48,317 nucleotides of DNA, from positions 1 through 48,317 of the forward strand of contig JAPOSC010000014.1 of assembly GCA_026709935.1 (NCBI GenBank), written 5' to 3'. This DNA is from Thiotrichales bacterium (GTDB lineage Bacteria > Pseudomonadota > Gammaproteobacteria > HK1). Shown in pieces: positions 1 to 48,317 of the stretch. The position numbers were made by a program, and so were the translations under genes. The notes under the pieces were generated by a model. It had not been told where the DNA came from. It saw only the letters and a program-made list of their open reading frames with translations, and ran no database searches. Every line of letters begins with the position of its first letter. Position 1 is the first letter of the stretch.

Positions 1-1900
<1,900 letters not shown>

Positions 1901-2397: not shown

Positions 2398-4602
2398 TCA
2401 ACCCCTCCGTTGTGTAGCCCGCTCGACGACCCGGAGAAAATCCTCCGCATTCATGTATCCCACCACCCGCAGCTCACGCCGTTCCCGCCCGTCGGGGCCG
2501 AAGAACTGGATGGCGGGGGGGCCAAAGAGACCGAACTCGGCGAGGAGCGCCCGGTCGAGCCCGTCGTTGTCGGTGACGTCGGTCCGGAGCAGGCGCACGT
2601 CGGCGAGCGCCGCCTGCACCGTCGAATCGCTGAACGTGAAGCGCTCCATCTCCTTGCAGCTCACGCACCAGTCCGCATAGTAGTCGAACATGACAACCTG
2701 GCCCCGCGCCGCCGAGGCCCCGAGTTCGGCGTTCAGTCCGTCGATGCCCTTCACCCTCCTGAACTCCAGGTGACGCTCCGCGCCCTCGCCGGACACCAGC
2801 GCGACGCCCTTCAGCGGCCGGAACAGATCCCCTCCGCCGCCGGCCACCCCCACCATGACCAGGACGCCGTACACCAGCATGACCAGCCCCGCGCCCTTCC
2901 ACAGCCGCCGCCACCCCCCGCTCCCCGGCGTAAGCGAGTCGAGGGCGCCCATGTAGATCGCGCACACAATGAACAGCGCCGCCCACAGCAGCAGGGTGAC
3001 GGATTCGGGTGCCACCCGCTCGATGAGGTAGATCGCGACGGCGAGCAGCATCACCCCGAACACCGCCTTGACCGCGTTCATCCACGGCCCTGCCTTCGGC
3101 AGCAGCTTGCCGGCCGAGACGCCGGCCACGATGAGCGGTACCCCCATTCCCATCCCGAGCGCAAACAGCGCAACCCCGCCCAGCAACGGATCGCCCGTCT
3201 GGCCGATGTAGATGAGCACGCCGGCCAGCGGCGCGGCGACACAGGGGCCGACGATCAGCGCCGACAGCCCCCCCATCGCCGCGACCCCGGCCCAGGTCCC
3301 GCCCCGCTGACGATGGCTGACGGCGGCGAGCTCGGCCTGCCACGAGACCGGCATCTGGAGCTCGTAGAACCCGAACATCGAGAGCGCAAGCAGCACGAAC
3401 ACCAGCGCGAACGCCGACACGATCCAGGGGTCCTGGAACACGGCGGCGAGGTTCGCGCCGAACAGTCCGGCGAGCACTCCCGCCACCGTGTAGGTGAGGG
3501 CCATCGCCAGCACGTAGACAAGAGACAGCGCGAAGGCGCGGCGGGTCGAGGCGGCTCCACCGCCGAGCGCTTCTCCCCGACCCACGATAATGCTGGTGAG
3601 GATGGGCACCATGGGCAGCACGCACGGAGTGAACGTCAGCAGCAGGCCCGCTCCGAAGAGCGACAGCACCACGAGCCAGCGGTTGCCGGACAGGAGCGCG
3701 GTGGCAATCCGGTCCTGCTCCGGCATCTCGATGGACGCGATGTCCGCCGTCACGGGGCCGGAGAGCCCGGGAGTGCCCGGCAACGCGAGTTCCGGGTCCG
3801 CGAAACCCGATACGCCCGAGGCGCCACCGGCGACCCCGCGGGCCTGAAGGTTCGATGTCGTGGACGATGCGCCGGGACGGCCCGGCTCCGAGAGCCCCGA
3901 CGCATCGGCGTCGGAACCCGCGCCGCCACCGGTGTCGGCCCACGCGGCGGGCAGAAGCAGGGACACGGTCCGGGTGATCGGCGGGTAGCACAGCCCGGCG
4001 TCCGCACAGCCCTGGTAGGTGATATCAATGTCGATCGCGTCACCGGGAACGACGCCGACGAAGGGCACCCGGGCCCCCACCGAGCCGTAGTACACTTCCA
4101 TCGGCCCGAAGTACTCGTCGTCCCTGATCATCCCCTCGGGGAAGCCGGCTTCGCCGAGCGAGGCCCCCGACCCGTCCGCGATGCGGAATCGAAACTTGTC
4201 GCGATACAGGTAGTAGCCTTGCGCGATGTCCCAACGCGCCTCGATGGCGTCGGGCCCGGTCGCGGTAGCGTGAAGCACGAAGGCGACATCCGGATCGAGA
4301 AACTGGTCCTCGTTGGATCCGCCGATCGCGATGCCCTCCCCGAGCCCCAGCAGCTTCGAGAGGGCGGGCGAGGTCCTGGAGAAGGTCGCCGCCTCGGACG
4401 AGGCGCTCACGCCGGTGCCGTTGGGTCGCTCCGCCGCCGCGTCCACCGCGACTTCCACGGCCGGCTCGCCGTGCTCGTCCGCGTGAACCCCCGGGCCGGC
4501 CCAGAACATGCCCAGCGCGGACAGCACGGCGAGGCCCGGAAGCCAAGCGAGCCGAACCGGAACGGACCGCACCGCCCGATTCCGTCCGCCGCGCGGGCTC
4601 AT
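2398..4602 (-). CDS. dsbD: Thiol:disulfide interchange protein DsbD
   Basis: 734 residues with the full three-part DsbD plan. A signal peptide ends near residue 41 (PGVHA). The alpha domain carries the Cys pair C199/C205 (GCADAGLCYPP). A membrane domain of about eight helices carries the two conserved Cys (FTPCVLPMVPIL and GPCVAAPLAGVL). A C-terminal thioredoxin domain has CVSC at residues 646-649. DsbD moves electrons from cytoplasmic thioredoxin across the membrane to periplasmic thiol proteins; the adjacent TlpA-like protein is a likely client. The start at 4602 (ATG with a G-rich SD) is chosen because the frame upstream of it is unlike a protein. A Gly/Ser/Pro-rich linker (about residues 215-280) joins the alpha and membrane domains and is longer than usual. 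Confidence 0.95.
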   Translation of the reverse strand: MSPRGGRNRAVRSVPVRLAWLPGLAVLSALGMFWAGPGVHADEHGEPAVEVAVDAAAERPNGTGVSASSEAATFSRTSPALSKLLGLGEGIAIGGSNEDQFLDPDVAFVLHATATGPDAIEARWDIAQGYYLYRDKFRFRIADGSGASLGEAGFPEGMIRDDEYFGPMEVYYGSVGARVPFVGVVPGDAIDIDITYQGCADAGLCYPPITRTVSLLLPAAWADTGGGAGSDADASGLSEPGRPGASSTTSNLQARGVAGGASGVSGFADPELALPGTPGLSGPVTADIASIEMPEQDRIATALLSGNRWLVVLSLFGAGLLLTFTPCVLPMVPILTSIIVGRGEALGGGAASTRRAFALSLVYVLAMALTYTVAGVLAGLFGANLAAVFQDPWIVSAFALVFVLLALSMFGFYELQMPVSWQAELAAVSHRQRGGTWAGVAAMGGLSALIVGPCVAAPLAGVLIYIGQTGDPLLGGVALFALGMGMGVPLIVAGVSAGKLLPKAGPWMNAVKAVFGVMLLAVAIYLIERVAPESVTLLLWAALFIVCAIYMGALDSLTPGSGGWRRLWKGAGLVMLVYGVLVMVGVAGGGGDLFRPLKGVALVSGEGAERHLEFRRVKGIDGLNAELGASAARGQVVMFDYYADWCVSCKEMERFTFSDSTVQAALADVRLLRTDVTDNDGLDRALLAEFGLFGPPAIQFFGPDGRERRELRVVGYMNAEDFLRVVERATQRRG

Positions 4603-4802
4603 CAACCCCCGCTTGCCGCGCAAGCCCGGATCAAACCCCGAACCGGATTGTTCGCTTCGAGCCGCATGCATTCGAAGCTCCCGCCGACCCTCTGGTCGGG
4701 AGCGATCATAGCTCTCGTGGTATTCCGCGTGGCTGCGAACGGTTCGCCTCCCATCGGCCCCCGTACCCGGTGCGATCGAAGCGGGCGCGGGGACCCGGAG
4801 GA

Positions 4803-5120
4803 TCACTTCGGCTTCTGGCTCGCGAAGTAGGCGGCGATGTCGTCGATATCCTCCTCCGTGAGCGTGGCCACCATCGGTGCCATGGTGGGGTCGACGCGCA
4901 CGCCGTCACGAAAGGCCCGGATCTGCTTTGCAAGGTAGGCCTCGTGCTGCCCCGCAAGCTTGGGCCAGATTGGATTGATGCTGTTGCCGTCCACCCCGTG
5001 ACACGCCGCGCACACCACGGCTTTCGTCTGCCCCGCCGCAGGATCACCGCCCGCGTGAGCCGACGCGAGCGGCGCAAGCGCGAAAGCCAGGACCAGCGAG
5101 GCACCGTAGATCCGATTCAT
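4803..5120 (-). CDS. Small periplasmic class I cytochrome c
   Basis: 105 residues. A signal peptide (residues 1-23, ending ASAHA) precedes one haem site CAACH at residues 37-41, with Met80 or Met83 (DPTMAPM) as the likely sixth ligand. The size and the terminal helix ending AAYFASQ match the cytochrome c553/c4-half type used as soluble electron carriers. The start has AAGGGAG about 8 nt upstream. It is the first gene of the minus-strand redox run; the 200-nt space before dsbD may hold a second promoter. Which oxidase or dehydrogenase it serves cannot be told from the window. Confidence 0.92.
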   Translation of the reverse strand: MNRIYGASLVLAFALAPLASAHAGGDPAAGQTKAVVCAACHGVDGNSINPIWPKLAGQHEAYLAKQIRAFRDGVRVDPTMAPMVATLTEEDIDDIAAYFASQKPK

Positions 5121-5480
5121 GGTCGAATGCTCCCTTCGAGAGTGGTCGAGAATAGTCGGCCGGGCCATCCCACCGCGACCGGAGGTTTCCAGTTTCCCCC
5201 GAAAACTGTAACGCATCGCCACCAGCCGCGCAGTACCTGTTATCGTTTCGCGCCTGTTCAGCTTCGGCGGCGGATTGACGAGACGGCGCGGTGACGGAGC
5301 CGCGCCGGTCGGCACCCGCGGTGCGAGACCGGGCACCCGCAACTCGCCTGGTGGGCGCGAGCACCGGCGACGACCCCACCCTTGCACGCACGCCGCCGGC
5401 CGCTGGTCCGCTAGACCCGAAAATTTCACCGATTGGCGTCTGCAACCGCGAATCGGTGAATTCGGGCGAGGAGGTTCGAG
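5121..5480. other. Divergent intergenic region with palindromic repeat
   Basis: This 360-nt gap separates the minus-strand cytochrome c gene from the plus-strand YeeE/YedE gene and must hold both promoters. I see no convincing sigma-70 boxes. Its right end carries one copy of the dispersed palindrome (5416-5466), directly before the ribosome binding site of the transporter. The reading frames that cross the gap are arginine-rich shadows and not genes. Confidence 0.6.
5416..5466 (-). repeat. Dispersed palindromic element, copy A
   Basis: The left arm CCCGAAAATTTCACCGAT (5416-5433) pairs with ATCGGTGAATTCGGG (5452-5466), with a 3-nt deletion in the right arm. Read on the minus strand the centre matches copies B and D: CACCGATTCGCGG then a short variable part then ATCGGTGA. 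The right arm ends 15 nt before the GTG of the YeeE/YedE gene and 1 nt before its GAGGAGG, so it would form a hairpin in the mRNA leader. Confidence 0.8.
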
Positions 5481-45962: not shown

Positions 45963-46283
45963 GGCAGGTCGCCTCCGTCGCGGTGGAACGCCAGTATAGA
46001 CGGTTCGGGATCGGACCGTTCCAGTCGTGCGGCGGTCGTGCAGCGAGGGCGGGAACGGGGGAATTCAGGGTTCCCGGCGTTGAGTCGCACATCGAACGAG
46101 ACGGTGGCCTACACGAGAGGTTTCCCGATGCGCATGTTTCCGGCTTCGCGCCCGCGGACAACGCGGTAAAATGACCTCCACGCAACCGCAAGGGATCGTC
46201 ATGGTGCGCCCCGGCATTTCCGCGCCCAGCCAGGAAACCCTCGCCATCCTCGGCGTAGGCGTCATATAGAAGGAGGTGTAGAC
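45963..46283. other. GDH upstream region with short ORF
   Basis: This 321-nt gap holds the GDH promoter on the minus strand. TATACT at 45998-45993 could be a -10 box, but no -35 match is present. ACGGT (46000) and ACCGT (46015) form a spaced inverted repeat next to it. A 22-codon ORF (ATG 46201, SD AAGGGA, stop 46269) precedes the small coiled-coil gene and looks like a truncated relative. Confidence 0.45.
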
Positions 46284-46558: not shown

Positions 46559-47098
46559 TCAATCCCGGGCCGGGACGTCCTCGCCCTGCTCGCCCTGCTC
46601 CGCCTGGCCCCGCCCTTCCTGGCCCTGCTCCGTCTCGCCCTGCTCGGTCCCGATCTGCTCCGACTCGCGACGCTTCTGCGCATCCATGTACAGCGCCTCG
46701 AAGTTCACCGGCGCGAGCATGAACGGAGGGAAGTTCCCCTTGACCGTCAACTGGTCGATGGTCTCTCGGGCATACGGGAACAGCACGTTGGGACAGGCCA
46801 CCGCCAGCGCCCGCCGCCGCGTTGCTTCATCCATGCCCGCGATGCGGAAGATCCCCGCCTGCTGCAGCTCGACGATGAGCAGCGTGCGCTCGCCGTCCCT
46901 GGCCTCCACGGTCAGGGTGAGCACCACCTCGAAGCGGGTGTCCTCCAGACGATTGGCGCGGGTGCCGAGGTCGATCTCCACCTGCGGCTGCCGTCCGGAG
47001 CCGAACACCCCGGGCGCCTCCGGCGATTCGAAGGACAGGTCCCGCAGGTAGATCCGCTCGATCCCCAAGTGTGGCCTCGCTGGCTCCGGCTCCGCCAT
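46559..47098 (-). CDS. secB: Protein-export chaperone SecB with acidic repeat tail
   Basis: 179 residues. SecB core is clear: IYLRDLSFESPEAPGVF near the start, VVLTLTVEA, and the diagnostic CPNVLFPYARETIDQLTVKG and FPPFMLAPVNFEALY. SecB holds secretory proteins unfolded and hands them to SecA. The core normally ends near residue 145; here about 35 Glu/Gln/Gly-rich residues follow (GTEQGETEQGQEGRGQ), an expansion of a 9-15-bp repeat. GAGGAG lies before the ATG. Confidence 0.95.
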   Translation of the reverse strand: MAEPEPARPHLGIERIYLRDLSFESPEAPGVFGSGRQPQVEIDLGTRANRLEDTRFEVVLTLTVEARDGERTLLIVELQQAGIFRIAGMDEATRRRALAVACPNVLFPYARETIDQLTVKGNFPPFMLAPVNFEALYMDAQKRRESEQIGTEQGETEQGQEGRGQAEQGEQGEDVPARD

Positions 47099-47189
47099 GA
47101 CTCCTCAGCCTTCAATTTCGCCGGGAATTCCGGCGGCGTCGAGTCTCTCATACCGGCGGTCGCGGTGGGTCCTGTTGTAGGCTGAGCTC

Positions 47190-47882
47190 ATGGCTTGGTT
47201 CCTGTTCATAGATGAAAGCGGTCACGACCGCGTCGCATCGCCCTACGAGGTCCTGGCCGGCGTTGCAATCCAGGATCGGGCGCTGCGCGAACTTGTCGGC
47301 TGTCTCCACGACGCCGAGTTCGACGCGTTCGGGCGGCGTTATAGCGACGGACACCGCGAGCTCAAGGGCTCCGTTCTGCTGAAGAGAAAGGTCTTTCGCC
47401 ACCGGGAACTAAACGTCGAGTTCGACCCGGCGGACATTCCCGCGCTCGCCAAGGCTGCTCTCGATGACGGCGCCCGTGCCGACGCCTCCATGCTCAAAGC
47501 TCTGGCGGTGGCGAAGCTGCATTATGTCGCCTCGGTTTTTGACATCTGCGCCCGGTTCGACTGCCGTGCGTTTGCCAGCATCGTCGAGACCGACGCCCCT
47601 CGGACGACGGATAGTGGCCTGCGCAAGGACTACGCCTATCTGTTCGAGAGATTCTTCTACTTTCTGGAGGACAACAACGTCGGGGAGCAGGGAATCGTCG
47701 TATTCGACGAGGTCGAGAAATCGAAGAGCCACCTGCTGATCGACCAGATGCATCGATACTTCGCGCAAACGGCAGTGGGCCGCCGTCGGGCGAGCCGCAT
47801 CATCCCCGAGCCCTTCTTCGTGCACAGCGACATGACCACCGGTGTGCAGATCGCAGATCTCGTCGCCTACGTCATCTCCTGA
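47190..47882 (+). CDS. DUF3800 protein, cut short by TGA
   Basis: 230 residues visible. It begins with the DUF3800 signature FIDESGHD and reaches the second conserved region DMTTGVQIADLVAYVIS, where a TGA stops it. DUF3800 proteins have an RNase H-like fold and may act on nucleic acids; several sit in defence or mobile contexts. The same frame continues for 60 codons after the TGA with a C-terminus typical of the family (see next entry), so this gene has probably suffered one nonsense change. Divergent from secB by 91 nt. Confidence 0.85.
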   Translation: MAWFLFIDESGHDRVASPYEVLAGVAIQDRALRELVGCLHDAEFDAFGRRYSDGHRELKGSVLLKRKVFRHRELNVEFDPADIPALAKAALDDGARADASMLKALAVAKLHYVASVFDICARFDCRAFASIVETDAPRTTDSGLRKDYAYLFERFFYFLEDNNVGEQGIVVFDEVEKSKSHLLIDQMHRYFAQTAVGRRRASRIIPEPFFVHSDMTTGVQIADLVAYVIS

Positions 47883-48065
47883 GGCTTCCGCATGCCCCGC
47901 ATGACCAAGCCTGCCCGGGAGGAGCTGTCACCATTCGCGAACCGGATCGCCCGATTGCGTTACCGGGCTGTGCGCGAAAGACTTGGCAATCCCGAATTCG
48001 AGATCTGGAGTTTCGCGCACCTCAGCGATCTGCGGACACAGGCCGAACGCAACGAGGATGCATGA
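47883..48065 (+). pseudogene. C-terminal remnant of the DUF3800 gene
   Basis: In frame after the TGA at 47880-47882 come 60 codons reading GFRMPRMTKPAREEL, then NRIARLRYRAVRE, then NPEFEIWSFAHLSDLR, up to a normal TGA at 48063. In intact relatives as I recall them, the position of the TGA is Trp (ISWGF). One change from TGG to TGA would explain the break; a sequencing error is the main alternative. Confidence 0.75.
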
Positions 48066-48080
48066 GGAAGAAAAAAGGCA

Positions 48081-48317
48081 ATGGAGCACCGGAGCACCCC
48101 AAAGCCTCCGCAGGCAATCCTCGTTACATCCCCGGAGGATGTCAAGCCTCTTTCCTGCTACGACCGTCGCGGCGGGATCGACTCCGACAAGCTGGAGGCA
48201 GTGCGCAAGCGTCTCGGAATCGAGGGCGACGGCGGTGGTTGGCCGGAGGAGTTCGACGATCCCGCGTTCAGCCGCCGCGTGCTCAGCCTCGACGACGAGC
48301 AGGCGGACCGGCTATGC
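48081..48317 (+). CDS. Unrecognised protein, 3' end beyond the window
   Basis: The ATG at 48081 opens 79 codons to the right edge. The reading is protein-like: TPKPPQAILVTSPEDVKPLS, a charged part (DSDKLEAVRKRLGIEGD), then WPEEFDDPAFSRRVLSLDDE. AGGAAG is about 11 nt upstream. The alternative ATG at 48062 overlaps the previous stop but reads as Arg-rich noise. I do not recognise it. Confidence 0.55.
   Translation, partial: MEHRSTPKPPQAILVTSPEDVKPLSCYDRRGGIDSDKLEAVRKRLGIEGDGGGWPEEFDDPAFSRRVLSLDDEQADRLC

Follow-up and report, generated by a model that had tools for sequence, protein, structure and literature searches.

A DUF3800 gene interrupted by an in-frame TGA at a conserved tryptophan adjoins an intact putative small-RNA gene on the opposite strand

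The 48,317-nt stretch of DNA analyzed here (the window), from a Thiotrichales bacterium (GenBank assembly GCA_026709935.1, contig JAPOSC010000014.1), carries a DUF3800 gene interrupted by a TGA codon at a conserved tryptophan position and, directly downstream, an intact putative small-RNA gene on the opposite strand (Table 1). A preliminary description of this DNA had recognized the nonsense codon at the conserved tryptophan, which our analysis bears out, but it was incomplete in that it missed the RNA gene. An in-frame TGA alone is ordinary and of little general interest. We read the small RNA as the probable dedicated partner of DUF3800, and we are highly confident of the anatomy of the DUF3800 and small-RNA unit. 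The whole chain, in which a recent nonsense change or an assembly error lies in the protein half, the RNA half is intact, and the RNA acts in an antitoxin-like manner, could equally well prove right or wrong.

Table 1. Features of the DUF3800 locus and the convergent putative RNA gene, in window coordinates
Feature	Position	Strand	Details
DUF3800 reading frame	47190..47882	+	230 aa; ATG at 47190 to in-frame TGA at 47880-47882
Continuation of the frame	47883..48065	+	60 codons with homology to the relatives' C-terminal end, closed by TGA at 48063-48065
Putative small RNA	48071..48109	-	5'-GGAGGCUUUG, UCCG-loop hairpin, CAUUGCC, U-run
Putative -10 element	48117..48122	-	GAGGAT, 3/6 matches, weak
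Putative -35 element	48140..48145	-	TTGACA, 6/6 matches, 17-nt spacer

The truncated 230-aa product matches Pfam DUF3800 (PF12686) over residues 4-229, with an E value of 1.6e-18 and 68.2 bits against a cut-off of 21. The full-length C-terminus is absent from the window gene, as the TGA replaces a tryptophan. When the pieces before and after the TGA are aligned with six relatives taken from public genomes (L007-L012), they match along their whole length, the stop falling in the tryptophan column, and a profile of six sequences recovers 47190-48062 as a single gene interrupted by one TGA (E = 7.5e-155). The coordinates 47190-48065 given in the preliminary description are thus correct, as is its statement that the frame runs for 60 codons past the TGA to a family-typical C-terminus. 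It had also proposed comparing the codon in relatives and held that relatives ending at this position would contradict it. Tryptophan is present there in all 28 DUF3800 loci compared (two of which, L040 and L046, share 94% identical DNA), and none of the 28 ends at this position; every frame extends beyond it, the L027 frame by only 20 residues owing to a frameshift. Among these 28 are the distant loci L014 (38% identity), L060, and L061. A selenocysteine reading of the TGA was set aside because the relatives carry tryptophan rather than cysteine.

In an AlphaFold model of the family (six sequences; mean pLDDT 63.9, with the C-terminal tail at 254-291 below 50), the conserved tryptophan is placed at the end of a helix spanning residues 216-232. 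Foldseek returned 147 matches, none at E ≤ 0.001; the best was a weak match to RNase H2/HII (E = 0.046). The 230-aa product had no match in PADLOC, PDB sequences, or NCBIfam.

TGA closes 27 of 33 open reading frames, the DUF3800 frame included, when frames are chosen by a simple and crude codon-position rule, and the genome carries prfB, which encodes RF2 and scores over its curated cut-off. The standard code therefore applies, as the preliminary description had maintained: TGA is the main stop codon and RF2 is kept, which is not the picture of a genome recoded under table 4 or 25. Compared with the nearest relative, L008, the residue is identical at 251 of 292 codons, and dN/dS is 0.163 upstream of the TGA and 0.098 downstream. 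Changes on the window branch, assigned with L038 as the third sequence, number 24 synonymous and 18 nonsynonymous before the TGA and 7 and 6, respectively, after it; the nonsynonymous changes after the TGA are fewer than the neutral expectation (binomial P = 0.019, from 13 changes only). Because the codons beyond the TGA are still conserved relative to L008, the TGA would be a very young stop, an error 435 bp from the contig end, or a codon that is read through. The sequence favors a very recent event, and we consider it highly probable that a recent nonsense change or an error, rather than functional readthrough, lies behind the TGA.

The window is the whole of contig C20 in an assembly of 88 contigs that is 95.9% complete. 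It ends 435 bp past the TGA at an exact 55-nt overlap with contig C57 (window 48263-48317), and an assembly error at the TGA is therefore possible. The rest of C57 continues the window contig, and a 55-nt overlap is typical of a branch in an assembly graph. Just beyond the RNA promoter, window positions 48157-48313 hold a remnant that matches, at 87% identity, the 3' portion of a Phd/YefM-type antitoxin gene located on C57 (the C57 copy matches Pfam at 1.7e-8).

The DNA of the window and of L008 is alike only over positions 47171-48148 (86%), which comprise the DUF3800 gene with the 19 nt before it and the downstream sequence to 44 nt beyond the hairpin. At E = 1e-40, a single genome among 369 from the window's class contained the DUF3800 family, namely the window's own; at E = 1e-10, it was found in 7 of 385 genomes of the class of Rhodopila. 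Relatives also occur in 13 plasmid records, whose genera are all alphaproteobacterial (nine were examined). No phage record matched a DUF3800 relative, and one viral contig bears an N-terminal DUF3800 fragment. A search of the flanks at the genus level found similarity at secB only (in three of four relatives), plus repeats. We considered a mobile element ending at the hairpin and rejected it, as no empty site was found, although the homology of distant pairs does end near the hairpin. Directly upstream of the DUF3800 unit, 81 bp (47089-47169) are 96% identical to a site on C57, and this repeat may mark the place where the unit was inserted. A further repeat at about 46080-46263 is 71-83% similar to several sites on C15 and C35, two other contigs of this genome.

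The putative RNA gene (48145-48071, minus strand) lies directly 3' of DUF3800 and is convergent with it, with 5 nt between the end of the U-run and the stop codon that closes the extended frame. In the window, the minus-strand fold is intact (-21.6 kcal/mol for 46 nt, z = -4.29). The same element follows directly after the stop codon of each relative, with 21 invariant columns in 16 sequences. Minus-strand pairing holds in 168 of 168 cells across 14 sequences, and 25 of the changes seen are two-sided. Deriving the structure from folds of the same sequences favors the pairing score, but the covariation score of 0.450 stands well above the controls (0.131 when shuffled, at most 0.159 when slid). 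Pairing on the plus strand is lower (92.5% in 12 sequences) because G·U pairs of the true strand read as A·C there. The minus-strand loops are of the GNRA class in 16 and the UNCG class in 4 of 23 sequences, compared with 0 of 23 on the plus strand; by eye, a later sample had UNCG loops in three of seven and no GNRA loop.

Upstream of the RNA, the best pair of -35 and -10 elements falls at one fixed position, 6-7 nt before GGAGGC, in 25 of 25 loci. The same position was found in 7 of 7 loci of the later sample; the figure for shuffled flanks was 413/12000. Promoter matches average 8.9 of 12, compared with 6.8 for shuffled sequence and 6.7 for the plus strand, with 9 of the 25 loci individually scoring no better than shuffles (P > 0.05). 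The argument for this putative promoter is carried by its fixed position, not by its score. Sequence, pairing, loop class, and promoter position of the DUF3800-adjacent RNA family are conserved down to about 50% protein identity. Beyond this, reading of the sequences at the distant loci L014, L060, and L061 revealed a longer RNA variant that shares the GGAGG start and the place of the promoter; our RNA model R1 had no match in L060 or L061 and a noise-level match elsewhere in L014. The pattern of the distant variant was sought in viral contigs and not found there.

Several other candidates were examined and discarded. An apparent RNA copy in L066 lies within a coding sequence. A small coding ORF downstream of DUF3800, reading M...KPP in the window, was rejected, as the two conserved blocks lie at distances that vary by 10, 14, or 16 nt among loci and, in L040, a stop codon immediately follows the ATG. 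Given the full minus-strand pairing, a plus-strand hairpin of which the window holds a decayed copy was discarded as well.

The association between RNA and gene was approached from both sides. Starting from the protein, the RNA stands beside DUF3800 in 16 of 16 near relatives (L007-L012, L019-L026, L037, and L038), a count that includes L010, whose last dozen residues are altered, and leaves out four near-identical plasmid records (H2-H5). Among the seven genomes from the class of Rhodopila, four have an R1 match, two carry the distant kind, and one (L062) holds a fragment without RNA. Starting from the RNA, R1 was searched at E = 0.001 against overlapping samples of 385, 350, and 388 genomes, some of which were searched twice. 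The matches fell in 16 distinct genomes: 11 beside DUF3800 (including the window and G384, which helped build R1), 1 alone (L089), and 4 judged to be chance, with L039 and L080 in coding sequence and L087 and L088 terminator-like without a promoter in place. Viral contigs yielded 17 pattern matches. We take L040, L046, and L052 to be real on the strength of their scores (42-45 bits), folds, and promoters; the other 14 (17-26 bits) are chance-like. L040 and L046 both have DUF3800 beside the RNA. No complete near-family DUF3800 gene without the RNA was seen, a tally in which loci found through the RNA cannot count.

The RNA is kept beside a broken DUF3800 gene in the window and at three other loci. 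L027, on a plasmid of Sphingomonas sp. NIC1, has its frameshift at about residue 249; L036 lacks residues of about 32-258; and L083 retains only residues of about 200-296. Two N-terminal DUF3800 fragments, L062 and L028, are without the RNA. The RNA also occurs without any gene of the family beside it. L052, a phage contig of 9133 bp with no DUF3800, has an RNA at 1329-1382 (+) whose promoter matches the consensus at 12 of 12 positions (TTGACA/TATAAT). It is convergent to a 72-aa ORF without a Pfam match, near a Mu F-like head gene, and is possibly an RNA decoy. Another stand-alone RNA (L067:2999-3044, +; also L068 and L069) belongs to a Tn3-type transposon, where it sits between the Tn3-family transposase and a gene for a HAD hydrolase or P-type ATPase. 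A 41-nt match to the L067 RNA occurs in 26 sphingomonad plasmid records (three were examined), none of which is among the 13 plasmid records with DUF3800 relatives. Finally, the RNA at L089:1501-1543 (-) has its promoter at the usual place, adjoins a gene for a Tle1-like T6SS phospholipase, and has no DUF3800 within 3 kb.

These data have to be weighed against readings that assign the RNA a different role or none. That the window holds a plain pseudogene or an assembly error, with the downstream hairpin a passive leftover independent of the protein, seems to us rather unlikely. In its favor, the nonsense codon falls on a tryptophan that all 28 loci share, broken copies are common (L027, L036, L083, L062, and L028), and the contig end is near. 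The family is also rare in the class, and the DNA shared with L008 covers the gene and the RNA only, as expected of an acquired unit. A passive leftover does not sit well with an RNA whose sequence, pairing, loop class, and promoter position are all conserved, and the existence of stand-alone RNAs means that it is not passive across the family as a whole. Functional readthrough, in which the TGA is decoded as tryptophan at a low level so that DUF3800 protein is made in both a short and a long form, is improbable. The frame beyond the TGA is intact and its dN/dS is as low as that before it, but a very recent mutation predicts equal constraint too. Moreover, the absence of a stop here from every relative leaves no conserved readthrough signal, and the genome has RF2 and uses TGA as its main stop.

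The RNA might instead be a working part of a DUF3800 ribonucleoprotein, serving as scaffold or guide much as the RNA of TnpB does, rather than an inhibitor. The predicted RNase H fold of DUF3800 (PMC10910872), the weak best Foldseek match to RNase H2/HII, and the constant position of the RNA next to near-family genes are all consistent with this. However, the hairpin and the terminal U-run fill the RNA between promoter and stop codon, which leaves no guide-length stretch and no variable guide segment of the TnpB/IscB type, and the stand-alone RNAs (L052, L067, and L089) and those beside broken genes are harder to explain; we consider a ribonucleoprotein part doubtful, a little more so than a passive leftover. 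That the element is merely the plus-strand terminator of the DUF3800 mRNA is very improbable. It does begin a few bases after the stop codon and has a G+C-rich stem, but on that strand the stem has an A-run before it and lacks a T-run after it, and pairing (92.5% versus 100%), loops (0/23 versus 20/23), and promoter all favor the minus strand.

The reading we put forward, that the small RNA is an antitoxin-like inhibitor of DUF3800, draws on analogy with characterized systems, and we judge its chances to be slightly below even. A DUF3800 protein with an RNase H-like fold would be encoded on one strand, and a dedicated RNA of about 40 nt would be transcribed on the other from its own sigma70-type promoter, converging on the DUF3800 gene and ending at a terminator next to its stop codon. 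The RNA would bind the DUF3800 protein and keep it inactive, much as an antitoxin does. Loss of the protein would then be tolerated, and loss of the RNA only would not. Such an inhibitory role would account for the survival of the RNA beside broken genes and alone in mobile DNA. The sequence itself shows the nonsense codon as well as the structure, strand, promoter position, and terminator of the RNA and its association with DUF3800; binding and inhibition are inferred. Against this chain stand the L062 and L028 fragments without RNA, which are what mere decay predicts, and the broken genes beside an intact RNA may simply not have had time to decay. More broadly, the subfamily may consist of RNase H-fold toxins or defense nucleases that are curbed by a convergent hairpin RNA in a toxin-antitoxin architecture of its own and spread on plasmids, with the stand-alone RNAs as antidotes of their carriers; this extension is speculative, and we think it rather unlikely. 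If true, the RNAs of L052, of the L067 type, and of L089 would let their carriers survive in DUF3800-bearing hosts, and the window would represent a host with a freshly dead toxin and its antidote still present.

Known type III antitoxins consist of tandem repeats upstream of the toxin. The window RNA differs from this layout, being a single copy that lies downstream and is convergent. The window RNA is not known to be related to the ToxI repeats, nor DUF3800 to the ToxN fold. A closer likeness is offered by AbiF and RCd22 (RF03085) of Clostridioides difficile, where, as described in PMC12373285, a short structured RNA with a conserved motif, first listed as an Rfam motif, stands beside a protein family and has been shown to bind and neutralize the toxic AbiF protein. 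The putative RNA described here is single, downstream, and convergent, whereas RCd22 has two motif copies and precedes its protein gene on a shared strand. In ToxIN, an RNA likewise neutralizes a nuclease, and a phage has a stand-alone copy of the RNA, the mimic pseudo-ToxI (PMC3475682), as might be the case for L052. For the protein, PMC10910872 and PMC12669027 describe the same Pfam family, a predicted RNase H-fold nuclease, in Cas12a2 and type VI-F/V-A2 loci. Those DUF3800 proteins are fused to TPR domains and occur in CRISPR loci, neither of which was seen at the window locus.

DUF3800 is a common family with several linked RNAs, and the locus described here offers a minimal RNA whose strand, promoter, and terminator are clear. 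The part of the DUF3800 literature that was accessible gave no explanation for the role of the linked RNAs. The natural separations of RNA and protein, as a broken gene with the RNA or as the RNA alone, make the question of whether the RNA inhibits or serves the protein testable, and the stand-alone RNAs in a phage and a transposon point to counter-defense or anti-addiction.

No Rfam 15 model matched at the element in the window, L026, L067, or 32 further stretches. The small RNA is apparently an unlisted member of the known DUF3800-linked RNAs, and a printed but uncurated motif may exist outside Rfam. The Rfam motifs of this kind reportedly come from Weinberg 2017. Two of them, DUF3800-I (RF02969) and DUF3800-IX (RF02968), resemble the window RNA in being small structured RNAs beside a DUF3800 gene. 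The genome of the window carries a second DUF3800 gene of another subfamily (L016; G000:C34:209214-209792), in whose 3' flank no such RNA element was seen by eye. In L011, the Rfam DUF3800-IX model matches at 4443-4515 (+); a second DUF3800 gene (5141-4518) has its 3' end 2 nt away, and the two are convergent as here. L011 is from Rhodobacteraceae KLH11, and the second DUF3800-like gene was recognized by eye on its minus strand in the region 4443-5141.
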